A DNA stretch of 64,000 bases from Nitrobacter sp. NHB1 (GTDB taxonomy: Bacteria; Pseudomonadota; Alphaproteobacteria; Rhizobiales; Xanthobacteraceae). The notes beneath the pieces were generated by a model. That model worked only from the letters and a program-made list of their open reading frames with translations. It did not search any database and had not been told where the DNA came from. Location of the stretch: positions 186,001 to 250,000 of the forward strand of contig NZ_JBAMDA010000001.1 in NCBI RefSeq assembly GCF_036964665.1. Reading direction: 5' to 3'. Below, one piece after another: positions 47,886 to 63,200 of this stretch. The position numbers and the translations under genes are program-made. Position 1 is the stretch's first letter. Every line of letters begins with the position of its first letter.

Positions 47886-49319
47886 CATTACAGTCGTAAT
47901 TTGTATTGTGCGCTTTAGCGAGTTCTGACTCGATGCATCACCATGATTCGACATCAATCATGGACGACGGGCGGGTCGATCGAAACGGTACTGGAGTTGT
48001 GGGCGTCGTCGCTGCGGGACGTGAAGCGACGGATGCGCCCATTGTTTGCGCAGGCGCGTACGGCGGCGAGCGCGGGCGCATTCATTGACGGACTGCTGAG
48101 CGAAGAACGGCGCAAGACTGGCTGGATGCGAGCGGAAGCGGCGGGCGATCCCGGCCCGTGGCCCAGCAGGAGCTTCTGGGCCGAGACCGCTGGGACGCCG
48201 ACGAGTTGCGCGATCTGGTGCGCGATTATGTGGTCGAGCATCTCGGTGACGAAGGCGCGGTGCTGGTCGTCGACGAGACCGGCTTTCTGAAGCAGGGCAA
48301 AGCCTCCTGCGGAGTGGCGCGACAATACACCGGTTCGGCCGGAAAGATCACGAATTGCCAGATCGGGGTATTCGCGGCCTATGTGTCGCGCCACGGTCAT
48401 GCCTTCATGGACCGCGCGCTCTATCTGCCGAAGAGCTGGACGGACGATCCGCGCCGCCGGAAAGCCGCGCATGCGCCAAGCGATGTCGGATTTTCGACGA
48501 AACCGCGGCTCGCGGCCAAGATGATCGCGCGGGCCATTGCGGCGCGCGTCCCATTCGCCTGGGTTGCAGGCGATACGGTCTATGGCGTCGGCGACATCGA
48601 GCGGGATTTGCGCCAGGCTGGCAAAGGCTATGTGCTCGGCGTTGCCGCCAACCACGGGTTCGGATCCTGGAGCCGGAAGCGGCTGATCGGCGGTTCAGCG
48701 GAAAAGATCGCCAAAGCGCTGAAGCCGACCGATTGGCGCCGCCTGTCGGCAGGCAGCGGAACCAAGGGGCCGCGGCTGCATGACTGGGCGTATCTCGAAC
48801 TCGCCGATCTCGACGCCGGTGAGTTCAATGAGGAGCGCAGCGGCTTGTGGACGCGCGGACTGCTGATCCGGCGCCATATCGCTGACGGCGAACTCGCCTA
48901 CTTCACCACCTGGTGTCCCGCCGGAACGTCCATCAAGCAGCTGGTCACCGTTGAAGGACATCGCTGGGCGATCGAAGACAGCTTTGAGACCGCCAAGAAC
49001 GAGTTCGGCCTCGATCATAATGAAACGCGATCCTGGCATGGCTGGCATCGTCATGTGTCGCTTGTCATGTTGACCTTCGCCATGATGGCCGCCATTCGCC
49101 GAAAAGCTAACGCGCCGCCCCAAAAAAACACTTCGCGCGCAACCCGAACGCGCAAGACCTCATCCGTTGGTCGGTCCAGGAAATCCGCAGATAGCGCAGC
49201 GGCTCGCGCGAAAACGAATTCGACCTGGCTATGTCATCGCATGGTCGCTGTGGCGACGCACTCACCAGGCCGTCGCTCAAAAAGCCCACATCAAACAAAA
49301 ATTACGACCGTAATGCTAG
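47882..49319 (+). mobile_element. IS701-family insertion sequence with intact ends
   Basis: Left and right ends are inverted repeats: CATTACAGTCGTAATTT from 47886 and its near-perfect complement ending at 49315 (one mismatch in the first 17). Both are flanked by CTAG, which fits the 4-base YTAR duplication of this family. The element proper is about 1,430 bases and carries one transposase gene, now frameshifted. Confidence 0.85.
47943..49313 (+). pseudogene. IS701 transposase with three frameshifts
   Basis: The protein is readable only across three frames: TTGGSIETVLELWASSLRDV to GDPGPW (47943 to about 48160), then QQELLGRDRWDADELRDLVR through AVLVVDETGFLKQGK, AGDTVYGVGDIE and HRWAIEDSFETAKNEFGLDH (to about 49125), then NPNAQDLIRWSVQEIR, then IAQRLARKRIRPGYVIAWSL to the stop at 49311-49313. 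The second shift falls at a run of seven A. The DDE-type core lies in the middle segment. It is probably inactive unless supplied in trans. Confidence 0.85.
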
Positions 49320-49487
49320 TTGATGTCCCACCTAGCGGCCATTCATTAAGACCGAGCCGATCAATCATCAATCTACGCCCGAATTAGCACAACTATTCCG
49401 CCTCGCCTCAATTCGGCGCACTTATGCGCCAACCATCCTATCATGCGAACCCTCTCGTCCCAGAAGTCGGCTCTCGCATATGCCTAG
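49320..49487. other. spacer between IS701 and IS5 elements
   Basis: This is A+T-richer than the backbone, with no gene or repeat seen. Confidence 0.4.
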
Positions 49488-50618
49488 GGAAGCTCTGAAC
49501 AACTTGGCGACTATGGCACTCTTCGATCATTGATTCGGGGAGGCGCTCGGATGGCCCAGCTGAGTTTCGCGTCGCTCGATTATGCGGACAAGAAGAAGCG
49601 CACGAAGCGAGATGTGTTTTTGGCTGAGATGGCAGCGGTGGTGCCTTGGGTCGCGCTCGAAGCTTTGATCGAGCCGCATTATCCCAAGGCTGGTCCGAGT
49701 GGCGGTCGGCGACCATTTCCATTGGCCGTGATGCTACGGATTTATTGCTTGCAGCAGTGGTATAACCTCTCTGATCCCGGCGCGGAAGAAGTCCTTTACG
49801 ACATTTGCTCGATGCGCACGTTCGCGGGTCTGGAGCTCGGACGCGACACAATTCCCGATGAGACGACCATCTTGAACTTCCGGCATCTGCTGGAGCGTCA
49901 CGAGTTGACGAAGGCGATATTCGTCGCGATTGCAGAGTTTCTGGAGACTCGCGGTGCTCTACTGCGTGGCGGCACCATCATCGACGCGACGCTGATCGCG
50001 GCATCGCCATCGACGAAGAACAAGGCACAGAAGCGCGACCCCGAGATGCGCTCATCGAAGAAGGGCAACCAGTGGTACTTTGGCATGAAGGCCCACATCG
50101 GTGTCGATGCGACAAGCGGGCTCGTGCACACCGCGGGCGTGACCACAGGCAGTGTGCATGACGCCAAGGTCATGGACAATCTGATCCGCGAGGATGATCG
50201 TGCGGTGTATGGCGACAAGGGATATGCCAACGACCGCAAACAACGACAGGCGGAAGCAGCGGGCGTTCTGTGGGCCGTGAAGGCGAAAGCGAAGCCCGGG
50301 CGCCCCCTGTCGATATCGCAACGCCGCCGCAATCGCCGCTTCGGAAAAATCCGCGCCAAGGTCGAGCACGTGTTCCGGGTGATGAAATGCCAGTTCGGCT
50401 ATCGCAAGGTTCGCTATCGCGGCATCGCCAAAAACGGCGCACAGGTCTTCGCGTTGCTCGCGCTCGCAAACCTATTCCTTGCCCGCAGGACACTTGCGTC
50501 CGCTTGACAAAGTCGCCGGGCGAATGCCGCCCGCGGCAGGTGCAAACAAAGAACCCTTCACCGCCAACGCAAACCTGTTGCGACTGCTTCAGAAAAAGTG
50601 ACGTTGCTCAGAGGTTCC
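49488..50618 (+). mobile_element. IS5-family insertion sequence
   Basis: The ends are imperfect inverted repeats: GGAAGCTCTGAACAA from 49488 and the complement GGAACCTCTGAGCAA ending at 50618 (two mismatches in 15). Flanks are CTAG on the left and TTAG on the right, so a 3-base TAG duplication is possible. The element is about 1.13 kb with one intact transposase gene. Confidence 0.7.
49551..50507 (+). CDS. IS5-family transposase
   Basis: A 318-residue DDE transposase, intact. The N-terminus (MAQLSFASLDYADKKKRTKRD) and RRPFPLAVMLRIYCLQQWYN are typical of IS5-group enzymes. The catalytic acids are in GTIIDATLIAAS, VYGDKGYAND and KVEHVFRVMKCQFGYRKVRY. GGGGAGG precedes the ATG at 49551. The gene fills the IS element and could still be active. 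Confidence 0.92.
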   Translation: MAQLSFASLDYADKKKRTKRDVFLAEMAAVVPWVALEALIEPHYPKAGPSGGRRPFPLAVMLRIYCLQQWYNLSDPGAEEVLYDICSMRTFAGLELGRDTIPDETTILNFRHLLERHELTKAIFVAIAEFLETRGALLRGGTIIDATLIAASPSTKNKAQKRDPEMRSSKKGNQWYFGMKAHIGVDATSGLVHTAGVTTGSVHDAKVMDNLIREDDRAVYGDKGYANDRKQRQAEAAGVLWAVKAKAKPGRPLSISQRRRNRRFGKIRAKVEHVFRVMKCQFGYRKVRYRGIAKNGAQVFALLALANLFLARRTLASA

Positions 50619-50700
50619 TTAGATATCTGTCATACCCTGCACAAACGCGCATACTGCTTTGGAAATCACGTTGAGGGGGTGAACTGATTTTTAACCCACA
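50619..50700. other. short sequence between IS5 and the duplicated gene end
   Basis: No feature was recognised. The duplicated copy of the membrane-protein gene end begins directly after it at 50701. Confidence 0.4.
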
Positions 50701-50881
50701 TCATGCTGGTGACGACGCTGCCGATCTCGATTGCCGGCTGGGGGCTGCGCGAGGCGACGATGGCCCTGGCCTTCGGCTATGCCGCCCTGCGGCCCGAGGA
50801 CGGTGTCAGCGCCTCGCTACTGTTCGGGGTCGTGAATTTCGTCGCCGGTGCCCTCGGCTGGCTGCCGGATCAGATATAACT
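50701..50881 (+). pseudogene. duplicated, shortened 3' end of the AglD-like membrane protein gene
   Basis: This 181-base copy matches 42912-43158 but lacks 66 bases near the end. It reads VTTLPISIAGWGLREATMAL, then FGYAALRPEDGVSASLLFGV, VNFVAGALG and WLPDQI with a stop, in frame throughout. The few base differences outside the deletion edge are at third codon positions and silent. The copy has no start and is a relic marking the right edge of the IS-rich island. Confidence 0.9.
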
Positions 50882-50917
50882 ATCTGTCATAAAAAGATAA
50901 ATTAAGATTCTTATTAT

Positions 50918-50932
50918 GTTCATGACGTGAAC
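50918..50932. promoter_or_regulatory. palindrome GTTCA-N5-TGAAC, first of a pair
   Basis: GTTCATGACGTGAAC spans the possible GTG start of the winged-helix regulator gene. A second palindrome with the same arms and spacing begins 27 bases later. Together they look like an autoregulatory operator. Confidence 0.55.
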
Positions 50933-51652
50933 AAAAAGCTTGACGTTCATGCTATGAACGGGGTAAGCGACACCCGAACCAGCGGGGCGATCAAGGTGCC
51001 GGAGACCATCGACACCAGGGACAGCGAGAACGGCATCATTCTGGGATTATTGCGATCCCTGGATGAGGACGGCGGGCGATCGCAGCGGCGGTTGGCCGCG
51101 GAACTCGGCATCGCGCTCGGACTCGTCAACGCCTACCTGAAGCGCTGCGTCAACAAGGGGCTGGTCAAGGTCCAGAGCGTTCCAGCCCGCCGCTACGCCT
51201 ATTATCTTACGCCGAAGGGTTTTGCGGAAAAGTCCCGTCTCACGGTCACGTACCTCTCGCAATCCTTCAGTTTCTTTCGCGAAGCGAAAAGCGACTGCGT
51301 TGCGATGTTCGAGGCGGCCAAATCGCGTGGCGTGCGCACCGCCGTCTTGATGGGCCGTTCTGATCTGGCCGAGATCGCAGTCCTGTGTGCGATGGAGAGC
51401 GGCGTCGAGGTCATCGCTCTGGTCGATGCCGGGGCCAAGCCGGGTCAATTCCTGGGGGTTCCACTGGTCGGGTCATTCGAGGCGGTCAAACCGAAGTTCG
51501 ACGCCGTGGTCATCACCGATCTGGTCGGCACCTACGAGAGCTGGAATCTGGCGCTGCAGAGCTTTGACAGGGATCGGGTTCTGCTTCCGCGTCTTCTCGG
51601 TGTCGTGAAGAACCGCGACGACGTGAGCGAGCGGGAAGAGCTGGCATCATGA
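50927..51652 (+). CDS. winged-helix (MarR-like) transcriptional regulator
   Basis: A 241-residue protein (232 if ATG 50954 is used; neither start has a good ribosome-binding site). The N-terminal part has a winged-helix domain, GRSQRRLAAELGIALGLVNA then YLKRCVNKGLVKV and YAYYLTPKGFAEKSRL. The C-terminal 110 residues are Rossmann-like (TAVLMGRSDLAEIAVLCAME, EVIALVDAGAKPGQFLGVPL) and may sense a nucleotide or sugar nucleotide. It precedes, and overlaps by four bases, a NusG/RfaH-like gene at the head of the nonulosonic acid operon, and its own start carries paired palindromes. Local regulator of the locus (inference). Confidence 0.82.
   Translation: MNKKLDVHAMNGVSDTRTSGAIKVPETIDTRDSENGIILGLLRSLDEDGGRSQRRLAAELGIALGLVNAYLKRCVNKGLVKVQSVPARRYAYYLTPKGFAEKSRLTVTYLSQSFSFFREAKSDCVAMFEAAKSRGVRTAVLMGRSDLAEIAVLCAMESGVEVIALVDAGAKPGQFLGVPLVGSFEAVKPKFDAVVITDLVGTYESWNLALQSFDRDRVLLPRLLGVVKNRDDVSEREELAS
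50945..50959. promoter_or_regulatory. palindrome GTTCAT-N3-ATGAAC, second of a pair
   Basis: GTTCATGCTATGAAC is a perfect 6+6 inverted repeat and contains the alternative ATG start (50954) of the regulator gene. A bound protein here would block initiation or transcription of the whole downstream operon (inference). Confidence 0.6.
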
Positions 51653-52161
51653 TCCCCTCCGGGCAGCAGTGGTATGTAGTGCGGACTCATCCGTATGCCG
51701 AAGGCAAGGCCGCAGCGCATCTGCAGCGGCAAGGTTTCGAAGTCTATTTGCCGCGCTATGCCAAGCGCCGGCGCCACGCGCGGCGCGCCGACATCACCGC
51801 ATCGCCGTTGTTTCCGAGATACATGTTCGTTGCGATCGATCTCATTCACCAGCGCTGGCGCGCCATCCGTTCGACGGTGGGTGTCACGAACCTGGTCTGC
51901 AGCGGCGACGAACCGATGCCGGTTGCCCACGACGTTATCGGCCGCCTGAAACAGCGCGAGGATTCCGCCGGTTTCGTTCAACTCGATCAGAAGCCACGGT
52001 TTTCCGCTGGCGATGCCGTTCGTGTTGTTGAAGGCGCCTTTTCCGATTGCCTTGGCTTGTTCGAATCGATGACCGATAGCGAACGCGTCATGGTGTTGCT
52101 TGATCTTCTGGGCCGCAAGGTCCGGGTGACGATGAATATGGATACGATCGAGGCCGCCTAG
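51649..52161 (+). CDS. NusG-paralogue/RfaH-like transcription elongation factor
   Basis: A 170-residue protein with an N-terminal NGN domain (QWYVVRTHPYAEGKAAAHLQ then GFEVYLPRYAKRRRH, ASPLFPRYMFVAIDL, residues about 7-105) and a C-terminal KOW-type segment (FSAGDAVRVVEGAFSDCLGL ... VMVLLDLLGRKVRVTM). It is the specialised type found at the front of polysaccharide operons, not housekeeping NusG, which sits beside secE and ribosomal genes. Such factors bind RNA polymerase and suppress pausing and termination over long operons. A hairpin and an ops-like sequence lie 30-75 bases after its stop. Confidence 0.9.
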   Translation: MIPSGQQWYVVRTHPYAEGKAAAHLQRQGFEVYLPRYAKRRRHARRADITASPLFPRYMFVAIDLIHQRWRAIRSTVGVTNLVCSGDEPMPVAHDVIGRLKQREDSAGFVQLDQKPRFSAGDAVRVVEGAFSDCLGLFESMTDSERVMVLLDLLGRKVRVTMNMDTIEAA

Positions 52162-52192
52162 AGCCTGGCTTCGATCGACTTGAATTCGCGGC

Positions 52193-52220
52193 GGGTGAGA
52201 GGATGACCTCCCTTTCACCC
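52193..52220 (+). promoter_or_regulatory. leader hairpin directly before the ops-like element
   Basis: GGGTGAGAGG pairs with CCTTTCACCC over ten positions (one G-U pair) around an 8-base loop. No T-run follows. It lies four bases before the ops-like sequence, as stem-loops precede ops in the E. coli JUMPstart leader. It may pause RNA polymerase (inference). Confidence 0.6.
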
Positions 52221-52224
52221 GAAT

Positions 52225-52236
52225 GGCGGTAGCATG
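52225..52236 (+). promoter_or_regulatory. ops-like RfaH recruitment element
   Basis: GGCGGTAGCATG matches the conserved core of the E. coli ops element (GGCGGTAGCGTG form) in 11 of 12 bases, the difference being G to A. It is on the coding strand in the 119-base leader between the RfaH-like gene and legB, 45 bases before the legB ATG. Function is inferred from position and match. Confidence 0.6.
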
Positions 52237-52280
52237 GTTGTCGCCGGGCGGTTGCGGGGCGGTCGTTGTCGAATGGATCG

Positions 52281-53291
52281 ATGAAACTTCAGGGTAAGAA
52301 AATTCTTGTGACGGGCGCCGATGGTTTCATCGGTTCGCACCTCACCGAGTATCTCGTCGAACAGGGCGCCAATGTGCGTGCATTCGTCTATTACAACAGC
52401 TTCAATTCATGGGGCTGGCTCGACGAAACCAGCACGAGGATCAAGCGCGAACTCGACGTCTTCGCCGGTGATATCCGCGATCCCAACGGTGTTCGCACGG
52501 CGATGCGTGGATGCGACGTGGTGTTTCATCTCGCGGCGCTGATTGCAATTCCGTACTCGTACCATTCTCCCGACGCGTATGTGGACACCAACGTCCGGGG
52601 TACGCTGAATGTCGTGCAGGCAGCGCGGGATCTCGCGGTCGAACGCGTGGTTCACACATCGACCAGCGAGGTCTATGGGACCGCCCGCTTCGTGCCGATC
52701 ACGGAAGAGCACCCGCTTCAGGGACAATCGCCTTACTCCGCGACGAAAATCGGCGCAGATCAGTTGGCCATGAGCTTCCATCTGTCGTTCGGCACGCCGC
52801 TCAGCATCATCCGGCCGTTCAACACCTATGGGCCGCGGCAGTCCGCGCGGGCGGTTATCCCCACGATCATTACCCAGATCGCGTCGGGCGCGAAGCGGAT
52901 CAAGCTCGGCGCGATGACGCCGACACGGGACTTCAACTACGTCCGCGATACCGTGCGGGGATTCGTTGCGGTGGGCGAGTGCGACGATGCGATCGGAAAG
53001 GTTCTGAACGTCGGCAGCAATTTCGAGGTCTCGATCGGCGACACGGCCAGATTGATCGCCGAGCAGATGGGACAGGACGTCGAGTTCGAGCTCGATCAGC
53101 AACGCCTGCGTCCGGCGGGCAGCGAGGTCGAGCGCTTGTGGGCGGACAACGCGAAAATCAACAAGCTGGCGGGCTGGACTCCGGATTACGCGGGCCGGGA
53201 AGGGCTTGCCCGCGGATTGAAGGAAACCATCGCCTGGTTCGGTGACGCCGCCAATCTGCGCCGCTACAAGGCCGAGCTCTATAACATCTGA
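52281..53291 (+). CDS. legB: NDP-N-acetylglucosamine 4,6-dehydratase, LegB-like
   Basis: A 336-residue extended SDR enzyme with NAD-binding TGADGFIGSHLTEYLVEQGA, HLAALIAIPYSYHSPDAY, STSEVYGTARF and catalytic YSATKIGAD. The AYVDTNVRGTLNVVQAAR and FNTYGPRQSARAVIPTIITQ stretches match LegB-type dehydratases that start legionaminic acid synthesis by making the 4-keto-6-deoxy sugar nucleotide. ATG 52281 is preferred to TTG 52266. The leader before it carries the hairpin and ops-like element. The donor (GDP- or UDP-linked) cannot be told from sequence alone. Confidence 0.85.
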   Translation: MKLQGKKILVTGADGFIGSHLTEYLVEQGANVRAFVYYNSFNSWGWLDETSTRIKRELDVFAGDIRDPNGVRTAMRGCDVVFHLAALIAIPYSYHSPDAYVDTNVRGTLNVVQAARDLAVERVVHTSTSEVYGTARFVPITEEHPLQGQSPYSATKIGADQLAMSFHLSFGTPLSIIRPFNTYGPRQSARAVIPTIITQIASGAKRIKLGAMTPTRDFNYVRDTVRGFVAVGECDDAIGKVLNVGSNFEVSIGDTARLIAEQMGQDVEFELDQQRLRPAGSEVERLWADNAKINKLAGWTPDYAGREGLARGLKETIAWFGDAANLRRYKAELYNI

Positions 53292-53293
53292 CC

Positions 53294-54529
53294 ATGCGCG
53301 AAACTGTAGCTTCACCCGCAAACGGAAATCGTCCGATGCACGCACCTGCCGGTCAGCCATCTGGCGTCACAACCTCGGTCGTTGCGGCCGTACGCGGCCT
53401 GCTCGGTTCGCCCGACAAGCGGATTGCGCTGCATGAGCCGGAGTTTCGCGGTGAGGAATGGACCTACGTCAAGGATTGCATCGATACCGGCTGGGTGTCG
53501 TCGGTGGGATCTTATGTCGATCGCTTCGAGCAGGATCTCGCTGCGTTTGTTGGCTGCAAGCACGCGATTGCGACATCCAATGGAACGTCGGCGCTCCACA
53601 TCTGTCTGATCCTGGCGGGTGTCGAGAGCGGCGATGAGGTTCTCATCCCCACCTTGACCTTCATCGCAACCGCGAACGCGGTATCATACATTCACGCGGT
53701 GCCGCATTTTGTCGACAGCGAGACGATCTCCCTCGGCATCGATGCCGAACGGCTCGACAAGTATCTCGAGAGCGTTGCGCAGGTGGTCGACGGCGTTTGC
53801 ATCAATCGCGCCACCGGCCGGCGGATACGGGCACTCGTCGTGATGCACGTATTCGGCCATCCTTCTGATCTCGATGCGCTGATGGAAGTAGCCCGGCGCT
53901 GGAATCTGGTGCTGGTCGAGGATGCCGCGGAGTCGCTCGGTTCCTACTACCATGGACGTCATATCGGCAATTTCGGCCAGTTGGCGGCGCTGAGCTTCAA
54001 CGGCAACAAGGTTGTGACCACTGGTGGCGGCGGCGCCATTCTCACCAACGATTCCGATCTGGCCAAACGGGCCAAGCACATCAGCACGACGGCACGCGTC
54101 GCGCACGAATGGAATTTCCTGCACGATGAGGTCGGCTACAACTACCGGATGCCGAATATCAATGCGGCGCTCGGCTGCGCCCAGCTCGAGCGGTTGGCGT
54201 CGATGGTGGAGCGCAAACGGCGGCTTGCCGATGGCTACGCGAAGGCGTTTGCGACCATCAACGGAGTTCGCTTTGTGGGTGAGCCGCAGGGCACGTCGAG
54301 TAACTACTGGCTCAACGCAATCATGCTGGATAGCGAGCTCGCCTCGCATCGCGACGAATTGCTGGGCGCGCTCAACGATGCCGGCTTCATGTCGCGTCCC
54401 GTATGGACGCTGATGCACAAATTGCCGATGTACCAGTCCTGTCCGCGTATGAATCTTGACGTCGCGGAGCGGATCGAGGCGCAGCTCATCAATCTTCCAA
54501 GCAGTCCGGGACTGGTCGCGTCGTCATGA
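53294..54529 (+). CDS. legC: LegC-type sugar aminotransferase
   Basis: A 411-residue PLP enzyme of the DegT family. An N-terminal extension of about 50 residues precedes RIALHEPEFRGEEWTYVKDC and IDTGWVSSVG, the typical LegC opening. ATSNGTSALHICLILAGV, VVMHVFGHPSDLDALMEVA, VEDAAESLGSYYHGRHIG, the PLP-lysine SFNGNKVVTTGGGG and EVGYNYRMPNINAALGCAQL follow. It aminates C4 of the 4-keto sugar from LegB. It starts two bases after legB and overlaps the epimerase gene by four. Confidence 0.9.
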   Translation: MRETVASPANGNRPMHAPAGQPSGVTTSVVAAVRGLLGSPDKRIALHEPEFRGEEWTYVKDCIDTGWVSSVGSYVDRFEQDLAAFVGCKHAIATSNGTSALHICLILAGVESGDEVLIPTLTFIATANAVSYIHAVPHFVDSETISLGIDAERLDKYLESVAQVVDGVCINRATGRRIRALVVMHVFGHPSDLDALMEVARRWNLVLVEDAAESLGSYYHGRHIGNFGQLAALSFNGNKVVTTGGGGAILTNDSDLAKRAKHISTTARVAHEWNFLHDEVGYNYRMPNINAALGCAQLERLASMVERKRRLADGYAKAFATINGVRFVGEPQGTSSNYWLNAIMLDSELASHRDELLGALNDAGFMSRPVWTLMHKLPMYQSCPRMNLDVAERIEAQLINLPSSPGLVASS

Positions 54530-55692
54530 CCCGCCGCATCTGCGTCGTGACGGGCAGTCGTGCCGAATACGGGCTGCTGCGCTGGATTCTGAGCGATCTG
54601 CGCGACGCTCCCGATGTCGATCTTGAGCTCGTCGTGACGGGAATGCATCTGTCACCGGAATTTGGCAGTACCGTCACGGAAATCGAGAAGGACGGTTTTG
54701 CCATTGCGCGCCGCGTGGATTCGCTGTTGTCGAGCGGTACAGCTGGCGGCGTCGCAAAGTCGATCGGCCTCGGCGTGATCGGCATGTCCGATGCTTTGGA
54801 GGAACTCAAGCCAGACATCGTGCTGGTGCTCGGCGACCGGTTCGAGGTCTTTGCCGCGGTACAGGCTTGTCTCGTGCACAACATTCCCGTCGCCCATATC
54901 GCGGGTGGCGATACGACCGAAGGCGCGATCGATGAAGCCATGCGACATGCCATCACCAAGATGGCGCATGTTCACTTTGTGACAAATCCCGAGTCGGCGC
55001 GCCGGGTGCGGCAACTCGGCGAAGACCCGTCGCGTATCTACCAGGTCGGCAGTCCGGGACTCGATCATTTGCGTCGCCAACCGCTGCTGGATCGGTCGAC
55101 GGTGGAAGCAAGATTGGGCGCGCCGCTGGGCCGGAAGAATCTTCTGATCACCTTTCACCCGGTCACGCTCGAGGCTGCGCACGGCGAAGCGCAGTTCGCC
55201 GCGTTGCTCGATGCGCTCGATATGCTCGATGACGACATCACGCTTTGGTTTACCCATCCGAACGCCGATGCCGGCGGGCGCGCGATGGCGATCAAGCTCA
55301 AGGCGTGGGTAGACGCTCGCTCCGGGCGTGCCCATCTTTATACCTCGCTCGGACAGTCGCTCTACCTCAGTCTGATGGCCCAGGTCGATGCGGTGATCGG
55401 GAATTCCTCCAGCGGGCTCTATGAAGCGCCGTCGCTTAACGTTGCGACGGTCGATATCGGTGACCGGCAATGCGGCCGCCTGGCCGCGGCGTCGGTGCGG
55501 CGTTGCGCGCCGGATCGCGACGCCATTCGCGAGGCTATTGCAAAAGCTATGCAGCTCGATTGTTCGGATACGAAGAATCCCTATGGTGACGGCAAGTCGT
55601 CAGAGCGGATCGTCGAAATCCTGCGGGCACTGCCTCCCGCATCCGAGTTGATCGGCAAGCGGTTCCACATGATTGGACATGCCGATGTCTAA
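54526..55692 (+). CDS. legG: hydrolysing NDP-sugar 2-epimerase, LegG/NeuC-like
   Basis: A 388-residue enzyme that releases the nucleotide and inverts C2 to give the diacetamido-trideoxymannose precursor. It begins ICVVTGSRAEYGLLRWIL, the NeuC/LegG signature, and has VLVLGDRFEVFAAVQACLVH, NIPVAHIAGGDTTEGAIDEA, FHPVT and a C-terminal GNSSSGLYEAPSLNVATVDI sugar-nucleotide region. Position between legC and the NeuB-like synthase supports LegG over NeuC. Start and stop overlap the neighbouring genes. Confidence 0.92.
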   Translation: MTRRICVVTGSRAEYGLLRWILSDLRDAPDVDLELVVTGMHLSPEFGSTVTEIEKDGFAIARRVDSLLSSGTAGGVAKSIGLGVIGMSDALEELKPDIVLVLGDRFEVFAAVQACLVHNIPVAHIAGGDTTEGAIDEAMRHAITKMAHVHFVTNPESARRVRQLGEDPSRIYQVGSPGLDHLRRQPLLDRSTVEARLGAPLGRKNLLITFHPVTLEAAHGEAQFAALLDALDMLDDDITLWFTHPNADAGGRAMAIKLKAWVDARSGRAHLYTSLGQSLYLSLMAQVDAVIGNSSSGLYEAPSLNVATVDIGDRQCGRLAAASVRRCAPDRDAIREAIAKAMQLDCSDTKNPYGDGKSSERIVEILRALPPASELIGKRFHMIGHADV

Positions 55693-56761
55693 GCACACGC
55701 GGATCATCGCTGAAGCGGGCGTCAATCATAACGGTTCGGTCGACCTGGCGCTCAGGCTTGTCGATGTCGCAGCCGATGCTGGCGCCGACATCGTCAAGTT
55801 TCAGACGTTCAAGGCAGATCAGCTCGCCACGTCGAAGGCCGCGAAGGCCGAATATCAGGTGGTCAACACCAACGAATCCGGTTCGCAACTCGACATGCTC
55901 CGTGCGCTGGAATTATCGCCGGCGGATCACCGCGCAATAGCGGATCGCGCCCGCAGCCGGGGTATCGGCTTCATGTCGACCGCGTTCGATGCCGGGAGCC
56001 TGGCGATGCTTGCGGCGTTCGAGATGCCGGCGATCAAGATTCCGTCCGGTGACGTCACCAGCGTCGATCTTCTGTTGCGATCGGCTCGGTTAGGGAAGCC
56101 ATTGATCATGTCGACGGGCATGGCGACCCTCGGAGAGATCGAGCAGGCGCTTGGCGTCGTGGCTTTTGGGCTCATCACAAACAAGGCGCCGGCGTCGCGC
56201 GCGGACTTCGAGGAAGCGTATGGCAGCGATGCGGGGCGCAGCGCCCTGCGCGACAAGGTCACGCTGTTGCATTGTGTGACCGAATATCCTGCGCCGCCGA
56301 AAACGATCAACTTGCATGCGATGACGACCATGGCCGCGGCCTTCGATCTGCCCGTTGGATATTCCGACCATACGATTGGCATCGAAGTGGCGCTTGCGGC
56401 TGTGGCATTGGGTGCGGGGACGATCGAAAAGCACTTTACGCTCGATCGCGGTCTGCCGGGCCCTGATCATAGCGCTTCGCTCGAGCCGGATGAATTGAAG
56501 CAACTGGTAACGTCGATCCGTAACATTGAAAGCGCATTGGGCAGCGCGACCAAGGGACCGGGCGCCCAGGAGATGCGCAATCGCGCCGTGGCCCGCCGGA
56601 GCCTGGTTGCGGCACGCGCAATCCGCAAAGGCAAGATTTTGACGGCCGACATGTTCACAGAGAAGCGGCCGGGGACCGGATTGCCGCCGATCGAGGCACT
56701 GAATCTGATCGGCCGCCCGGCCGGTCGCGACTATCAGCCCGACGACATGATTGAACTATGA
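55685..56761 (+). CDS. legI: nonulosonic acid synthase, LegI/NeuB-like
   Basis: A 358-residue enzyme that condenses the 2,4-diacetamido hexose with phosphoenolpyruvate to the nine-carbon acid. Motifs are RIIAEAGVNHNGSVDLALRL, DIVKFQTFKADQL, KIPSGDVTSVDLLLRSARLG, LHCVTEYPAPPKTINL, VGYSDHTIGIEVALAAVALG and EKHFTLDRGLPGPDH. The last 65 residues form the SAF-type antifreeze domain. ATG 55685 is chosen; in-frame alternatives lie 6-12 bases upstream. The start overlaps legG by eight bases. Confidence 0.93.
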   Translation: MSKHTRIIAEAGVNHNGSVDLALRLVDVAADAGADIVKFQTFKADQLATSKAAKAEYQVVNTNESGSQLDMLRALELSPADHRAIADRARSRGIGFMSTAFDAGSLAMLAAFEMPAIKIPSGDVTSVDLLLRSARLGKPLIMSTGMATLGEIEQALGVVAFGLITNKAPASRADFEEAYGSDAGRSALRDKVTLLHCVTEYPAPPKTINLHAMTTMAAAFDLPVGYSDHTIGIEVALAAVALGAGTIEKHFTLDRGLPGPDHSASLEPDELKQLVTSIRNIESALGSATKGPGAQEMRNRAVARRSLVAARAIRKGKILTADMFTEKRPGTGLPPIEALNLIGRPAGRDYQPDDMIEL

Positions 56762-57405
56762 AGCCCGTAATTGTCATTGGAGCCGGCGGACATGCCGCCG
56801 TTATCGCCGATGCCCTGCAAGCTGCGGGCGTCAACGTCCTTGGCTTTACCGATGCCGATCCGGCCAAGCATCAATCGAAGCAGTGTGATCTGCCGGTGCT
56901 CGGCAGCGATGCAACGGTGCTGGCCGGTAGCGACCGGAACGACGTCCTGCTGGCAAACGGCGTCGGGGGTGTGAAAGGAACCGATGTCCGGCGAGCTCTG
57001 CAACAGCGTCTTCAGGAAGAAGGCTGGCGGTTCGCGACCGTAATCCACCCGACAGCGATCGTCTCGCGCCATGCGCGGATTGGAAACGGTGCACAGCTTC
57101 TCGCGGGTAGCATTGTTCAGGCCTTGGCCGCGATCGGTGAAGGGGCGATTGTGAACACGGCCGCTGTTGTCGAGCACGACGCAGATGTGGGGGACTACGT
57201 TCACGTCGCGCCGCGTGCGCTGCTGTGTGGCGCCGTGACGGTTGGGAATTACAGTCACATCGGGGCCGGCGCGGTCGTGCGTCAGGGAATCCGGCTCGGA
57301 GAGCGCACGCTGGTCGGCGCCGGAGCTGTCGTCGTCAAGGATTTCGATGGCGGCGGAGAACTGGTCGGCATGCCGGCCCGCTCTTCTGCCGAGGGGATCG
57401 CATGA
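56758..57405 (+). CDS. NeuD/PglD-like sugar N- or O-acetyltransferase
   Basis: A 215-residue enzyme with an N-terminal Rossmann-like part (PVIVIGAGGHAAVIADALQA) and a left-handed beta-helix of hexapeptide repeats (ARIGNGAQLLAGSIVQALAA, VGDYVHVAPRALLCGAVTVG, SHIGAGAVVRQGIRLGERTL). In bacillosamine and legionaminic pathways the matching enzyme (PglD/LegH) acetylates the C4 amine made by LegC. It has four-base overlaps at both ends. An O-acetyltransferase role as in NeuD is possible. Confidence 0.85.
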   Translation: MKPVIVIGAGGHAAVIADALQAAGVNVLGFTDADPAKHQSKQCDLPVLGSDATVLAGSDRNDVLLANGVGGVKGTDVRRALQQRLQEEGWRFATVIHPTAIVSRHARIGNGAQLLAGSIVQALAAIGEGAIVNTAAVVEHDADVGDYVHVAPRALLCGAVTVGNYSHIGAGAVVRQGIRLGERTLVGAGAVVVKDFDGGGELVGMPARSSAEGIA

Positions 57406-58451
57406 GGAACTGGGAGACCATTCTGGTCGACCCGGAGCTGTCGCTGCGGGATGCACTCGAGAAAATCGACAAGGCGGGAACGCGCATGGTTCTCGTCGTC
57501 GATGCCAACCGCCGATTGCTCGGGACGCTCAGCGATGGCGACGTGCGTCGTGGACTTCTGCGCGGGCTTGCGCTGACCGACAAGGTTGCGCAATCGATGC
57601 ATCTCAATCCGATCGTTGCGAAATCGAACGAGGATATTCAGGCCATCGTCGCCTCGATGCGGAACAGGGGCGTCTATCAGATGCCCATCGTCGATCCGCA
57701 GGGTATCGTCGTTGGTCTGCAGACCATCGACGATCTGCTGACGACGCCAAAGCGCGACAACTGGGTTGTGATCATGGCCGGCGGCCGGGGAACGCGGCTG
57801 GCCGAACTCACCAGCGAGACCCCGAAGCCGATGCTGAAGGTAGGCTCGAGGCCCCTGCTCGAAACGATCATTTCGAGCTTCGCGCAGCAGGGCTTCCGGC
57901 GCGTCGTCCTGGCCGTCGGCTACAGGGCCGGGCAGATCGAGGATCACTTCGGCAACGGGGCATCGTTTGGCGTGGATATCTCGTATCTCCGCGAGGACAG
58001 GCCGCTCGGGACCGCGGGCGCATTGAGCTTGCTGACCGAGCAGCCGACGCTGCCCCTGGTCGTGACCAATGCCGATCTTCTGACCAAGGAAAATTATGGT
58101 CACATGCTCGACCGGCATGTTGAGTCGAAGGCCGACGGCACCATGGCCGTTCGGACCTACGACATGCAGGTTCCGTTCGGCGTCGTGCGCGAAGGCGACG
58201 CCGGCATCGAGGCGATCGAGGAGAAGCCGGTTCAGAGCTTCGTCGTCAACGCAGGCATGTATGTCCTGTCGCCCTCGAGTCTCGGCCTGATTCCGAAAAA
58301 CATGACGTTCGACATGCCGTCGCTGTTCGACGCGATGATGCGGCAGGGAATGAAGACGCGGTGTCATCACATCGATGGCTACTGGCTCGATATCGGCCGG
58401 ATGGCCGATTACGAACGGGCCAACATAGACTTCGCCGAGATTTTCCGATGA
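57402..58451 (+). CDS. CBS-domain nucleotidyltransferase, PtmE-like
   Basis: A 349-residue protein with two CBS domains (residues about 1-115; MVLVVDANRRLLGTLSDGDV, YQMPIVDPQGIVVGLQTIDD) followed by a sugar-1-phosphate nucleotidyltransferase domain (WVVIMAGGRGTRLAELTSET then PKPMLKVGSRPLLE, LREDRPLGTAGALSLL, VTNADLLT). Campylobacter PtmE, with the same layout, makes the GDP-linked glucosamine used for legionaminic acid, so this gene points to a GDP-sugar route (inference). The ATG at 57402 overlaps the acetyltransferase stop; the frame is open upstream. Confidence 0.85.
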   Translation: MRNWETILVDPELSLRDALEKIDKAGTRMVLVVDANRRLLGTLSDGDVRRGLLRGLALTDKVAQSMHLNPIVAKSNEDIQAIVASMRNRGVYQMPIVDPQGIVVGLQTIDDLLTTPKRDNWVVIMAGGRGTRLAELTSETPKPMLKVGSRPLLETIISSFAQQGFRRVVLAVGYRAGQIEDHFGNGASFGVDISYLREDRPLGTAGALSLLTEQPTLPLVVTNADLLTKENYGHMLDRHVESKADGTMAVRTYDMQVPFGVVREGDAGIEAIEEKPVQSFVVNAGMYVLSPSSLGLIPKNMTFDMPSLFDAMMRQGMKTRCHHIDGYWLDIGRMADYERANIDFAEIFR

Positions 58452-59137
58452 TCGATGGACAATCAGTTCTCGCGGTCATCACAGCCCGCGGCGGATCGAA
58501 AGGCGTTCCTGGCAAGAACATCATGCCGATCGCCGGCCGCCCGCTGATCCAGTGGACCATCGACGCCGCGCGCGGATCGCGCCATGTGGACCGGCTGATC
58601 CTGTCGTCAGACGACGCGGCAATCATCGAGGTCGCCAGGAATGCCGGATGCGACGTGCCGTTCGTCCGCGATGCTGCGCTCGCGACCGACGAGGCCTCGT
58701 CGATGGATGTGGTGGCGGATGCGCTGGGTCGTGTGCCGGGTTATGAGATCGTTGTTCTCTTGCAGCCGACGTCGCCGCTGCGGATCGCTGCCGACATCGA
58801 CGGTGCACTGATGCGATTGATCGAAAGCGGTGCGCCGGCCTGTGTCAGCGTCCGCGAGGCCGACGACCATCCGTATTGGACCTTTCGAGTCGATCCGGCT
58901 GGCCGCCTCGCGCGGTTTGCCGAGCCGGACGGTGGTATGCCGCAGCGTCGACAGGATCTGCCGCAGGCGTGGTGCCTGAACGGCGCGGTCTATGCGGCAC
59001 GCACCGACTGGTTCATGCGAACGCGGACATTCCTCTCGGCCGCGACCGTAGGTTTTCCGATGCCGGCCGAGCGCTCGCTCGACATCGATACATTCGCCGA
59101 CATCGAGCAGTTCAAAAAGATTGCAGGAGAGAAATGA
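58448..59137 (+). CDS. legF: CMP-nonulosonic acid synthetase, LegF/NeuA-like
   Basis: A 229-residue cytidylyltransferase that activates the nonulosonic acid with CTP. The N-terminal VLAVITARGGSKGVPGKNIM then PIAGRPLIQWTI is the NeuA/LegF/PseF nucleotide-binding signature; ILSSDDAAIIEVARNAGCDV and VVLLQPTSPLR are also typical. Placement after LegI and the PtmE-like gene favours LegF. The start and stop both overlap neighbours by four bases. Confidence 0.92.
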   Translation: MIDGQSVLAVITARGGSKGVPGKNIMPIAGRPLIQWTIDAARGSRHVDRLILSSDDAAIIEVARNAGCDVPFVRDAALATDEASSMDVVADALGRVPGYEIVVLLQPTSPLRIAADIDGALMRLIESGAPACVSVREADDHPYWTFRVDPAGRLARFAEPDGGMPQRRQDLPQAWCLNGAVYAARTDWFMRTRTFLSAATVGFPMPAERSLDIDTFADIEQFKKIAGEK

Positions 59138-60456
59138 TAATGGATCGCTATCCCCGTCACCGTGACGTCGACATGACGCCGTTTTTGTCCGAGCGACCCA
59201 ATCATGCGCGTTATGGCCTGCCGTTGCAGGTCTGCTACTGCAAGAGCTGCGTCATTTCCAACCAGCGTCCTAACTCCGCGGTTGAATACGAGCACACGAA
59301 GGACAGCAAGAAGAAGACCATTAATTTCGATGATGAAGGCGTCTGCGATGCGTGTCGCGTTGCGGAGAATAAGACCAAGACCATCGACTGGATGGCTCGC
59401 GAAAAGGAATTGCGCGAACTCTGCGATCGCCATCGCAAGACCAATGGATCGTATGACTGCATCCTGCCAGGATCTGGCGGCAAGGACAGCTTTTATGCAG
59501 CGCACATCCTGAAGACAAAATACAACATGCATCCGCTGACGGTGACGTGGGCGCCTCACATTTATACGGACTGGGGATGGCGCAATTTCCAGTCATGGAT
59601 TCATGCTGGCTTCGATAACTTTCTTTGTACGCCGAACGGCCGGGTTCACCGTCTGGTCACGCGCCTCGCCGTGGAAAACCTATTCCATCCATTTCAGCCC
59701 TTCATTTTCGGTCAGAAGGCGTTGGCGCCGAAGATGGCGCTGCTGCACAAGATCCCGCTGGTTTTCTACGGCGAGAACGAAGCCGAATACGGTAACCCGG
59801 TTGCCGATACGCAAACGGCACGTCGCGACTGGTCGTACTTTGCGGCTCAGGACAAATCCAAAATCTACCTGGGCGGGACATCCGTCGCCGACTTGCAAAA
59901 TCAGTTCGGTGTCGATCCGCACGAACTGCAGCCTTATATGCCTGCCGATCCCGCCGAGATCGAGCGCCAGAAGGTCGAGGTGCACTATCTCGGCTACTAT
60001 CTGAAGTGGCATCCGCAGAGCTGCTATTACTACGCCGTCGAGCATGGCGGCTTCCAGGCTTCGCCTGAGCGTACGGCGGGGACTTACAGCAAATACAACA
60101 GCATCGACGATCGCATTGATGATTTTCACTACTACACGACGTTCATCAAGTTTGGCATCGGCCGAGCGACCTACGATGCGGCGCAGGAAATTCGCTCCCG
60201 CGACATCACGCGCGAAGAAGGCGTCAGTCTCGCTCGCCGTTTCGACGGCGAGTTCCCCGAGCGCTTTGCCGAGGAAATCTTCCGTTATCTGAGCATTTCC
60301 GAAAACGAATTTCCGGAAGCGTCGAAGATGTTCGAGCAGCCCATTATGGATCGTCGATATTTCGATAATCTGGCTGACTCTTTCAGATCACCGCATCTCT
60401 GGAAATACGAGAAGGGCGAATGGTCGCTGCGCAAGACTGTCTGGAACGAAGAGTAA
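59134..60456 (+). CDS. N-acetyl sugar amidotransferase (PseA/WbpG-like)
   Basis: A 440-residue PP-loop enzyme with ILPGSGGKDSFYAAHIL (SGGKDS motif) and two CxxC pairs in the first 90 residues (CYCKSCVISNQRP, GVCDACRVAE) that probably hold zinc. Family members convert an N-acetyl group to an acetamidino group, with ammonia supplied by a HisH/HisF-like pair. Here it is followed at once by those genes, so the nonulosonic acid is probably amidinated. GGAGAG precedes the ATG at 59134, which overlaps the LegF stop. Confidence 0.9.
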   Translation: MIMDRYPRHRDVDMTPFLSERPNHARYGLPLQVCYCKSCVISNQRPNSAVEYEHTKDSKKKTINFDDEGVCDACRVAENKTKTIDWMAREKELRELCDRHRKTNGSYDCILPGSGGKDSFYAAHILKTKYNMHPLTVTWAPHIYTDWGWRNFQSWIHAGFDNFLCTPNGRVHRLVTRLAVENLFHPFQPFIFGQKALAPKMALLHKIPLVFYGENEAEYGNPVADTQTARRDWSYFAAQDKSKIYLGGTSVADLQNQFGVDPHELQPYMPADPAEIERQKVEVHYLGYYLKWHPQSCYYYAVEHGGFQASPERTAGTYSKYNSIDDRIDDFHYYTTFIKFGIGRATYDAAQEIRSRDITREEGVSLARRFDGEFPERFAEEIFRYLSISENEFPEASKMFEQPIMDRRYFDNLADSFRSPHLWKYEKGEWSLRKTVWNEE

Positions 60457-60459
60457 CAC

Positions 60460-61218
60460 GTGACCAACGTACGGCTCATCGCTCGGCTCGACGTCAAGGG
60501 CCCCAATCTGATCAAGGGGATTCATCTTGAGGGACTGCGCGTCATTGGCGATCCCCAGGAGTTCGCGCGACGCTATTACGAGCAAGGCGCAGATGAACTC
60601 ATTTATATCGACATTGTTGCGAGCCTTTACGGGCGAAACAACTTGATGGACATCGTTCAGCATGCGGCCCGCGATGTCTTCGTGCCGATGACCGTTGGCG
60701 GGGGCATTCGCAGTTCCGACGATGTTCGTGATCTGCTGCGTGCCGGCGCGGACAAGGTTACGATCAATACGGCGGTGGTGAAGCGGCCTGAATTGATCAC
60801 CGAAGTCTCGCGTCGCTTCGGCTCGCAATGCATGGTGCTCTCGATCGAGGCGAAATCGCGCAGCGATGGCCGCTGGGAGGTCTATACCGATTGCGGTCGC
60901 GAACGTTCGGGTATCGATGCCGTTGAATGGGCGCAGCGCGGTATCGAGCTTGGCGCCGGCGAAATTCTGCTGACTTCGATCGATCGCGAGGGAACCCGGA
61001 AGGGTTTTGATGTGGAGTTGACCAAGGCTGTAGCTTCTGCCGTGTCCGTTCCCGTTGTAGCAAGTGGAGGATACGGCGAGGCGCGTCATCTTGCGGAGGT
61101 TGTTTCGGCCGGCGCGGACGCGGTCGCGATCGCGGACGCGCTCCACTACAATCGCGCGACAATATCTCAGTTGAGAGACGTTGCGCGTTCCCAGAACATT
61201 CCGGTGAGGCAGACGTGA
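60460..61218 (+). CDS. HisF-like subunit for sugar amidination
   Basis: A 252-residue beta/alpha-barrel of the HisF family ([72 protein letters not shown]). True HisF uses Asp11 and Asp130; this protein keeps Asp11 but has Glu at residue 130 (SIEAK). That, and its place between the PseA-like and HisH-like genes, shows it serves the sugar amidotransferase, passing ammonia from the HisH partner, not histidine synthesis. Starts with GTG; overlaps the HisH-like gene by four bases. Confidence 0.9.
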
Positions 61219-61859
61219 GCAGGCCGGAAATTACTGTCATCGACTACGGCATTGGCAATCTCTTCAGTGTGAAGCGGGCGCTGGAGTACTGTGGTGCGAA
61301 CGTCAGGATGTCGTCGAAAGCGGCCGATATTGTTAATGCCGATCGACTTCTATTACCCGGCGTCGGCGCCTTTGCCGACGGCATGCAGGGATTGCGCGAT
61401 CGCGATCTTGTCGAGCCGCTGACGCAATTCGCCGCGACGGGGCGGCCGTTGCTCGGTATCTGTCTCGGAATGCAAATGCTGGCGACTGCCAGCGAGGAAT
61501 TCGGCGAGCATCAGGGGCTTGGATTGATACCTGGACGCGTCAAACAAGTGCCGTTACGGACCGTTGAGGGTAACCCTCACAAGATTCCTCATATCGGCTG
61601 GAGTGAAATATTTCCAACGTCGGACGGTGGCTGGAAGGGAACGATGCTGGAGGATACGGCGGCGGGTGCGCCGGTCTATCTCGTACATTCATTTCATCAT
61701 GTTCCGGAGAATCCCGCACATCTGCTTGCCGACTGCGACTATGGCGGGCATCGCGTGACGGCGGCCATTCGCTCGGGTCCGATATTGGGAGCGCAATTCC
61801 ATCCGGAAAAGAGCGGCAGCGAAGGCCTGAAAATGATGGCTGCGTTTCTTCGGCTATAA
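61215..61859 (+). CDS. HisH-like glutamine amidotransferase for sugar amidination
   Basis: A 214-residue class I glutaminase. ITVIDYGIGNLFSVKRALEY opens the protein. The catalytic cysteine is in LLGICLGMQML (about Cys83), and the His and Glu in GAQFHPEKSGSEGL. It releases ammonia from glutamine for the HisF-like barrel and the amidotransferase. GTG start inside the previous stop. A histidine-biosynthetic hisH would normally sit with hisA, hisB or hisF of standard type. Confidence 0.9.
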   Translation: MSRPEITVIDYGIGNLFSVKRALEYCGANVRMSSKAADIVNADRLLLPGVGAFADGMQGLRDRDLVEPLTQFAATGRPLLGICLGMQMLATASEEFGEHQGLGLIPGRVKQVPLRTVEGNPHKIPHIGWSEIFPTSDGGWKGTMLEDTAAGAPVYLVHSFHHVPENPAHLLADCDYGGHRVTAAIRSGPILGAQFHPEKSGSEGLKMMAAFLRL

Positions 61860-61877
61860 GCACGCGCAGTATCCGAC

Positions 61878-63200
61878 GTGAAATTCTTTCGAGCCGGTGC
61901 TATCTATGCGGGTGCCAACGTGGCGTCCGCGGCGGTGCCGTTTCTGCTTTTGCCGCTGCTGACGCGGGTGCTTGCTCCCGCCGAATACGGGCACATTATC
62001 GCGTTTTCGCTACTGGTGACGTTTTGCACGCCATTTGCGGGACTGGGTATGCATTCCGCGGTAGGCGTCGCCTGGTTCACGATACCGCGCGCCGAAATAC
62101 CGGCTTACAACGGTACGGCTCTGGCCCTCGCCATCGGCACCACGCTGCTGGTGGCGCTGCTGGTTGCCCTCGTTGTCACGACGGTGCCTTCACTGGTTGC
62201 CGACCTTCCCGCGCCGTGGGCGTCCGCGGCGGCATTGACCGCCGGCGCGAATGTTATTTTGCAATGCCGTCTGGTGCTTTGGCAGAGTCAGCAGCGGCCG
62301 TTCAGAAATGCGATTCTGCAGGTGACGGCGAGCGTGTTGAACGTTGGTTTGTCGTTGATTGCGGTTCTCTGGCTTGGGTGGGGAGCTGGCGGCCGCAACG
62401 CGGGGATTGCGTTGTCCGCCGTTGCGATGGCGTCCGTGTCGCTCACTATATTCACGCTATCGCGCGATGCCGTCTGGTCGATCCGTGCCGATGATTTGAA
62501 ACACCAGATCGGCTACGGGCTACCGCTGGTTCCCCACGTGCTCGCCGGCGTTCTGCTCGCAACCATCGACAGATGGATGGTCTCGACTCAACTCGGCCCG
62601 AAGGTGCTTGGCATTTACGGCGCCGGCGCCCAGCTGGGAATGGTGATGGCCATTCTCGCCGATGCTTTTGTCAAAGCCTATAACCCCTGGCTTTACGCAA
62701 AATTGGGATCGGGTAGCACGAGCGACAGGCTTCGTGTCGTGGGAGCGATTTATGTCGCCGCGCCAGCCTTTTTGTGCCTGGCGATTGTGATCAATCTTGG
62801 CTTGCACTGGACCAGTGGTCTTTTGCTTGGTGCGCGCTATGCGGAAGCTGTGCAGATGCTTCCCTGGTTTGTGCTCGGCGGCGCCTTCAGCGGCGTCTAC
62901 TTCTGCACCTCCAGCATCTACTTCTTTCGAGGGCGGACAGGCTTATTGGCATCGTCCACGGTGAGCGCGGCGACAATAGGCTCCGTGGTGGTCTGGGGAC
63001 TCGTCTCTAGCCTTGGCATGCAGGGGGCGGCGATGGGATATGCCGCCACACAAGGCATTCTTGCCGTATTCGCAACCGTCATCGCGATCAAGAGTTTTGA
63101 TTTGCCTTGGTTCGAAGTCCGCCGCGCGGTGGGTGCGTTATTGCATGATGCCACCGTTCCAAACTCTCTTGAATCTTCCAACTTTCAGGATCGCTTCTGA
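61878..63200 (+). CDS. Wzx-like oligosaccharide flippase
   Basis: A 440-residue polytopic membrane protein with about 12 helices. The N-terminal FFRAGAIYAGANVASAAVPF then LLLPLLTRVLAPAEYGHIIA matches the polysaccharide biosynthesis/MATE-like flippases of O-antigen loci. It should move undecaprenyl-diphosphate-linked repeat units to the periplasm for polymerisation and ligation. GTG start, 18 bases after the HisH-like gene. The last 20 residues are soluble. Confidence 0.87.
   Translation: MKFFRAGAIYAGANVASAAVPFLLLPLLTRVLAPAEYGHIIAFSLLVTFCTPFAGLGMHSAVGVAWFTIPRAEIPAYNGTALALAIGTTLLVALLVALVVTTVPSLVADLPAPWASAAALTAGANVILQCRLVLWQSQQRPFRNAILQVTASVLNVGLSLIAVLWLGWGAGGRNAGIALSAVAMASVSLTIFTLSRDAVWSIRADDLKHQIGYGLPLVPHVLAGVLLATIDRWMVSTQLGPKVLGIYGAGAQLGMVMAILADAFVKAYNPWLYAKLGSGSTSDRLRVVGAIYVAAPAFLCLAIVINLGLHWTSGLLLGARYAEAVQMLPWFVLGGAFSGVYFCTSSIYFFRGRTGLLASSTVSAATIGSVVVWGLVSSLGMQGAAMGYAATQGILAVFATVIAIKSFDLPWFEVRRAVGALLHDATVPNSLESSNFQDRF

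Follow-up and report, generated by a model that had tools for sequence, protein, structure and literature searches.

In Escherichia coli, the JUMPstart/ops leader brings RfaH to polysaccharide operons, and residues R23 and Q24 belong to the pocket by which RfaH contacts ops. JUMPstart is listed for Gammaproteobacteria only in the available sections of Weinberg et al. (PMC2864571), and the literature that we searched, supplements not covered, held no printed report of ops in Alphaproteobacteria. How cis-encoded RfaH-like paralogues are recruited is stated as unknown in the available sections of PMC7593976. The prevailing evolutionary account, as given in the available sections of PMC7593976, PMC7819879 and PMC13015549, has ops recognition arise late, together with autoinhibition and trans action. 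Here we describe a locus in a 64,000-nucleotide (nt) stretch of Nitrobacter sp. NHB1 (contig NZ_JBAMDA010000001.1, positions 186,001 to 250,000; hereafter the window) in which the gene of an RfaH-like NusG paralogue (51649..52161, + strand, 170 aa) is followed by a hairpin (52192..52221, + strand) and an ops element, GGCGGTAGCATG (52225..52236, + strand). On comparison with related genomes, this locus is very probably a cis-encoded, ops-dependent RfaH/ops antitermination module, and we give this reading a probability of roughly 0.85.

The window locus has several things in common with the E. coli RfaH/JUMPstart system: the ops core, which is one base off GGCGGTAGCGTG of the E. coli K-12 waaQ leader (11/12 identical) and lies where the initial annotation of this DNA had put it, a hairpin directly before ops, as at waaQ, and polysaccharide targets. 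It differs in that the factor gene stands directly upstream of its own ops and in that the protein has a predicted beta-barrel C-domain instead. The stems also differ. In the E. coli waaQ leader the stem CAGGTAGCTGTTGAGCCTG stands directly before ops and is followed by GGGCGGTAGCGTG, and our alphaproteobacterial leader model gives just 11-13 bits on the E. coli leaders (waaQ, rfb and wza). To judge from these comparisons, the two kinds of leader share a plan, not a stem sequence. The cis-encoded RfaH homologues of a preprint (PMC13015549) come with the factor beside the operon and a predicted NusG-like constitutive beta fold, as in the window; in its available sections, however, that preprint supports cis recruitment without ops, whereas the window has a conserved ops behind the gene. 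RfaH cluster CL4, which is associated with helix-turn-helix (HTH) regulators (Wang et al. 2020, PMC7593976), also resembles the window in its HTH neighbour; the available sections of that paper give no recruitment signal for it, whereas the window has ops. The specialised NusG paralogues UpxY, TaA and LoaP are also among the closest known systems, and the UpxY and LoaP models score lower than RfaH on the window protein.

By itself the ops motif is unremarkable in a single window, and it is its conservation that is remarkable. The pattern GGCGGTAGNNTG was found twice in the 3.79-Mb genome, one copy being that at 52225-52236, compared to 20 times for the reversed control pattern. The pattern GGCGGTAGNNT occurred once in the window against 0.23 expected, and at least one copy was present in 20 of 100 shuffles. 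We rejected a chance origin of the motif because it is conserved, and not because of this single-window count. The 55 nt from 52186 to 52240 fold at -25 kcal/mol (z -2.9; 3 of 200 shuffles equally good), with an 11-pair stem whose 3' arm ends TTTCACCCG in the best fold. The initial annotation had described a strong hairpin at 52193-52220, four bases before ops; the strong hairpin stands, but it is one base longer at each end and the spacer is 3 nt. A covariance model of hairpin plus ops trained without the window leader (R1) gave one clear match in the genome (22.5 bits, E 0.003), followed by a match of 13.6 bits (E 1.5). The factor gene lies directly 5' of this sole clear leader and is not free-standing in the manner of a trans-acting factor. 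A terminator role of the hairpin was rejected, as a scan of 50500-52400 returned no terminator-like site; a promoter scan of the same region also found none. Rfam at gathering scores had no match anywhere in the window. The JUMPstart RNA model (RF01707), for which the E. coli waaQ leader served as a positive control (55.2 bits), had no match at E<=10 in 52140-52300 and none at E<=5 in 19 homologous loci.

Motif loss at orthologous loci was a check set beforehand, and the core was kept. The (T/G)GCGGTAGC core was present within 260 nt behind the factor gene in 21 of 28 named contigs and in 27 of 29 family loci, the latter being the best 30 of 63 matches less the window's own locus, with the weaker 33 outside the count. 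Seven genomes, with identical leaders, belong to both sets. In relatives the distance from the factor gene to the core is 48-111 nt; TCACCCGGA and a covarying stem usually come before the core, and the leader consensus is TTCACCCGGA(C/G)TGCGGTAGC(A/G/T)TG, with T as the first ops base in most relatives. The surrounding bases and the next gene change among these loci while the core stays; for the bases, this is the pattern that the initial annotation had named as support. The named contigs without a counted core are L046, L055, L056, L059, L060, L061 and L062; L056 has GTGCGGCAGCATG behind CACCCGG and L062 has CGCGGTAGCGCG at 146, both uncounted. The family misses are L012 and L019, the second of which carries a strong leader slightly further on (48.6 bits). 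Across the class, GCGGTAGC occurred within 350 nt downstream of 28 of 90 factor genes, a sample that leaves out the window's own gene, shares G574, G497, G493 and G561 with the named contigs and includes four genes with less than 350 nt of contig remaining downstream. The first 300 nt behind the gene held 29 forward core matches, compared to 0-3 per 100 nt elsewhere. At three class loci (L163, L172 and L180) a variant core, GCGGCAGC, stands behind the conserved TTCACCC arm, with C in place of T6, which is the base that flips in the ops of E. coli; such a variant would need an altered pocket.

The stem covaries in these leaders. In alignment A4 (42 leaders, 41 distinct), 82.7% of cells were paired compared to 28.7-48.1% in slid controls, and 40 cells carried two-sided changes against 19.2 in shuffled alignments (0/500 as high). 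A mostly separate alignment, A6, gave 45 two-sided cells against 18.6 shuffled (0/500), with 38.3-50.5% of cells paired in slid controls. A6 comprises 51 matches, 47 of them distinct, and its 52 sources are for the most part class genomes; the training genomes G574, G497 and G493 are included, and one match (L105, minus strand) is antisense. Counted instead as pairs that change on both sides, the two alignments were unexceptional, with 27 and 112 of 500 shuffles as high. For the covariance model, 10 sequences that share one loop register served as the seed, and the model was then rebuilt on 42. A plain MAFFT alignment left the stems unaligned, and RNAalifold returned just a 2-pair ops hairpin from it. 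Single-sequence folds of the 42 leaders ended the stem 0-4 nt before ops, and 0 nt before it in 19. On these comparisons the hairpin belongs to the conserved element, which goes beyond what the initial annotation had claimed.

The protein encoded in front of this leader matches the RfaH model TIGR01955 best (128 bits, compared to 69.6 for nusG, 80.2 for UpxY and 37.4 for LoaP; PF02357 also matches), in agreement with the first description of it as an RfaH-like NusG paralogue, and stays below the equivalog cut-off of 144.5. Its top sequence matches in the PDB are E. coli RfaH. A probable housekeeping NusG with 28% identity to the paralogue is encoded elsewhere (G000:C1:1315523-1316035). The window protein retains F56, H20, R23 and Q24 of RfaH and is without E48, K10 and R73. 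F56, which serves tight RNA polymerase binding in RfaH, is F in 144 of 144 aligned homologues and L in the genome's own NusG. Among 41 leader-linked proteins, F56, Q24, T72 and L142 are present in all 41, R23 in 36, H20 in 26 (N in 13) and R16 as K or R in 39. E48 is S in the window protein and E in 0 of the 41. The Rho-contact loop IFG of NusG, intact in the genome's own NusG, reads LLG in the window protein with G kept, so that this contact loop appears to be lost. Wider cis sets are less uniform: R73 is present in 9 of 27 class cis genes, and phylum cis genes have K10 in 13, R73 in 8 and E48 in 7 of 16. To judge from these residues, some cis-ops factors outside the alphas carry E. coli-type residues. 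AlphaFold2, given 27 sequences, namely the window protein and proteins of the named relatives, predicted a NusG-like beta-barrel C-domain (pLDDT 85, pTM 0.63), which in the available sections of PMC13015549 is a sign of monomorphic, constitutively active RfaH homologues. RfaH-style autoinhibition by an alpha-hairpin is probably absent from the window protein. Since AlphaFold2 can miss alternate folds and since F130, R138 and L142 are retained, the residue evidence is mixed and autoinhibition is unlikely rather than excluded.

LoaP uses an RNA hairpin, and the factor described here could likewise read the nascent RNA hairpin instead of the non-template ops DNA, with ops being mainly a pause. 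The covarying stem fits such a mode of recognition, as does its 3' arm, in which C28, A29, C30 and C31 are invariant in the 42 leaders beyond the needs of pairing. Invariance of the GCGGTAGC core in the same 42 is no argument for either side, since they were chosen by that core. However, the core is the known ligand of RfaH, the stems before ops have other sequences in E. coli and in several non-alphaproteobacterial leaders, two residues of the RfaH pocket, R23 and Q24, are retained, and the LoaP model scores low on the window protein. We therefore consider recognition of the RNA hairpin unlikely, while granting it more weight than the other rivals discussed below, and favour loading at ops DNA.

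The leader also tracks the factor gene. Leaders of at least 30 bits were found in 41 of 58 factor-bearing and 0 of 140 factor-less genomes of the family (198 genomes; both 41, leader alone 0, factor alone 17, neither 140; Fisher 3.9e-29, kinship ignored). Many family genomes had also supplied training sequences, which makes the count of 41 with both circular in part; no such circularity affects the zero in factor-less genomes. In the class (385 genomes), the proportions were 39 of 88 factor-bearing genomes, which hold 91 factor genes, and 2 of 297 factor-less genomes (both 39, leader alone 2, factor alone 49, neither 295; Fisher 2e-26, kinship ignored). At a loose level of E<=0.01, leader-only genomes numbered 12 in the family and 20 in the class; none of these 12 and two of these 20 reach 30 bits. 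Stricter filters, by which weak matches are lost, applied to searches over 40 genomes. Most family leaders of at least 30 bits lie within 350 nt behind a factor gene (33 of 43), compared to 21 of 43 in the class. Others, in factor-bearing genomes too, are over 20 kb from the factor gene or on a different contig (6 in the family and 13 in the class), and such far leaders are mostly confined to these genomes (6 of 6 and 13 of 15).

Co-occurrence of this kind could in principle reflect linkage and not function if factor and leader moved together as a horizontal cassette. The patchy distribution (58 of 198 family genomes), the gene-cluster setting, the transposase genes upstream in the window and the dominance of the cis arrangement in the family would all agree with this. 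Yet stem pairing and core are kept beside proteins that are only 40-60% identical, which requires selection, and the far leaders are still found in factor genomes, although contig breaks may fake some of the distance. We regard linkage alone as quite improbable. Scarcely credible, finally, is the notion that the element is a mere polymerase pause or an RNA structure for legB translation or stability, unrelated to the NusG paralogue, given that the 140 factor-less family genomes have no leader of at least 30 bits, that the first genes behind the element vary and that far leaders sit mostly in factor genomes.

The anatomy, conservation, covariation, co-occurrence and residue make-up of the proposed RfaH/ops module are directly established, and several observations weigh against it. 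No leader of at least 30 bits was found in 17 of 58 family and 49 of 88 class factor genomes, many more distant factor genomes are without a leader, and nine of 57 loci are without the core in the 260-nt stretch. Two strong leaders, G231:C16:275894-275935 (L230) and G424:C125:1223-1263, come from genomes in which the RfaH model matches weakly (57.2 and 59.3 bits), and these matches are perhaps the housekeeping NusG. The covariation alignments were fitted to the covariance model, which favours that model. Of the ops-contact residues K10, H20, R23 and R73, the window protein has H, H, R and V, so that two of the four side chains that contact ops in E. coli are altered (K10->H, R73->V). The leader-linked proteins are similar: position 10 is mostly Q (24) or H (14) and in one case K, and just 2 of 41 keep R73. 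Specificity must therefore rest on fewer or other contacts. The predicted beta-barrel depends on the 27-sequence alignment; a single-sequence run reached pLDDT 38 and was discarded.

On balance, comparison supports the self-contained antitermination system of factor, hairpin and ops that the initial annotation had suggested, with a conserved core and a leader that tracks the factor gene. Its co-transcription, pausing, ops binding, antitermination and coupling are proposed here by analogy with E. coli RfaH. RNA polymerase would start upstream of the genes for a MarR_EPS-type regulator and the RfaH-like protein, transcribe both, reach the hairpin and ops, and pause there. At the U11 pause, the nascent RNA hairpin would lie 14 nt behind the RNA 3' end, compared to 11-15 nt in relatives, and may prolong the pause; such a distance comes close to the range at which pause hairpins lie. 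In the available sections of PMC11001881, the ops pause of E. coli, also at U11, is called distinct from hairpin-stabilised pauses, and a pausing role of the hairpin is for that reason put forward as a hypothesis. The RfaH-like protein would then bind ops at the GGTA loop of its non-template strand, displace NusG on the polymerase and carry the enzyme through the long nonulosonic-acid/polysaccharide operon from legB on, with protection from Rho and probably with coupling to ribosomes. Since one leader was found in the window genome, the factor probably acts only at its own leader there.

In some relatives the factor probably acts in trans at further leaders as well. The leaders far from a factor gene make trans action likely in those genomes, although contig breaks can mimic distance. 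Such distant leaders, present in several genomes, are a second point on which the comparison goes beyond the initial annotation. In the genome G080, two leaders lie on one contig, one of them adjacent to the factor gene and the other 362 kb away. Cores were also seen upstream of the factor gene. On the divergent strand they occur about 270 nt before its start in L201, L205 and L211 and about 890-920 nt before it in L152, L154 and L157, an arrangement that would suit a leader belonging to a divergent operon. On the same strand, GCGGTAGC stands 326-424 nt before the factor gene start in L132, L215 and L220; these sites could subject the factor gene to control by ops, or they may be chance occurrences.

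Behind the window leader, the first gene is legB, as initially annotated, encoding an NAD-dependent 4,6-dehydratase (52281..53291; TIGR04180, 531.7 bits). It is followed on the same (+) strand by genes for a LegC-family aminotransferase (53294..54529; TIGR04181), a NeuC/NnaA-type UDP-GlcNAc 2-epimerase (54526..55692; TIGR03568) and a NeuB-type nonulosonic acid synthase (55673..56761; TIGR03569). The co-directional run continues over 56758..63200 with open reading frames (ORFs) for a hexapeptide transferase, a cytidylyltransferase, a His_biosynth protein, a Polysacc_synt flippase and others, assigned by Pfam scans of 56758-57402, 58361-59134, 60460-61215 and 61878-63197. Two transposase genes (DDE_5 type, IS5 family; 48158-49387 and 49530-50507) lie directly 5' of the module. 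The closest named loci to the window are those of Nitrobacter winogradskyi (L035) and Nitrobacter sp. Nb-311A (L036).

First genes behind leaders elsewhere vary, yet among the 20 scanned they are mostly sugar or export genes. These 20 came from 30 picked among 58 first ORFs, listed by longest ORF and in some cases implausible (for example L053, L151 and L165). They include galE (L039), pseB (L047), neuB-like genes (L050, L185) and genes for a PseC-like aminotransferase (L054), a PglK-like ABC transporter (L057), NDP-sugar dehydrogenases (L194, L251, L289), an epimerase (L245), a glycosyltransferase (L148), an FkbM methyltransferase (L140), a nucleotidyltransferase (L285) and a radical SAM protein (L274). 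First ORFs of L042, L058 and L150 had no NCBIfam match at 1e-40, and those of L196, L176 and L134 no Pfam match at 1e-15. Nine non-adjacent leaders precede ORFs whose translations resemble aminotransferases, SDR enzymes, glycosyltransferases and ABC transporters; the tenth locus of that set, L222, is adjacent.

The gene upstream of the factor encodes a MarR_EPS-type winged-helix regulator (50927..51652, + strand; TIGR04176, 64.6 bits against a cut-off of 88; HTH_24). Two palindromes were found here, compared to 0.27 expected in the window: GTTCATGACGTGAAC (50918..50932) and GTTCATGCTATGAAC (50945..50959), the latter adjoining a TTGACG -35-like hexamer read by eye. Because the listed GTG start overlaps the first palindrome, the true start of the regulator is probably further downstream. 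In 178 homologous loci (28 named, 90 class and 60 phylum), the pattern GTTCA-N5-TGAAC occurred 130 times, and 115 of these copies start 601-800 nt ahead of the RfaH-like gene, the position at which the MarR_EPS ORF starts in the window. Among the named loci, 26 of 28 have a relative of this regulator at most 1,600 nt upstream of the factor gene, as do 70 of the 90 class loci and 1 of the 60 phylum loci. The palindrome was also seen within 200 nt before five of the nine non-adjacent leaders examined (L223, L225, L226, L228 and L230). GTTCA-N5-TGAAC is thus a candidate operator of TIGR04176-type regulators, and the neighbouring genes may control initiation and elongation respectively, which we offer as a lead only.

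Beyond the class, TIGR01955 at E<=1e-20 detected RfaH-like genes in 62 of 299 phylum genomes (67 genes), of which we examined 60, leaving out the window's own, three family genes and the last three listed; 58 of the 60 loci fall outside the class by kinship label. The (T/G)GCGGTAGC core was present within 600 nt downstream in 16 of the 60, all outside the class (L245, L249, L251, L253, L258, L259, L266-L268, L270, L274, L276, L285, L288, L289 and L291). Possible stems, read by eye, abut ops in several of these loci, for example ATTCAG...CTGAAT and CAACAG...CTGTTG before TGCGGTAGCGTGC (L289, L291). In a quick tree with many open forks and long branches, the cis-ops rows are scattered through alpha and non-alpha parts, and E. 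coli RfaH falls in a 19-row group with one cis row. The tree is compatible with an old cis-ops state and a derived trans-acting RfaH, and is too weak to prove it.

These observations lead us to a wider and more tentative proposal, to which we give somewhat less than even odds. Recognition of ops may be old in the RfaH lineage and may have begun in cis, with many RfaH-like proteins of Proteobacteria, some without autoinhibition, loading at an ops and pause hairpin behind their own gene; the free-standing, fold-switching, trans-acting RfaH of E. coli would then be derived. The alphaproteobacterial module would have two tiers, with the MarR-type regulator and GTTCA-N5-TGAAC gating initiation and the RfaH-like protein gating elongation of one polysaccharide regulon. 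A conserved ops behind cis-encoded alphaproteobacterial factors that are without E48, and mostly without R73, does not fit a simple order in which ops came late, and this misfit is testable by existing in vitro assays. The leader also offers a way to trace polysaccharide regulons by sequence in many bacteria for which we found none described. Together, the arrangement of factor gene, hairpin and ops suggests a compact self-loading switch and bears on the evolution of RfaH.

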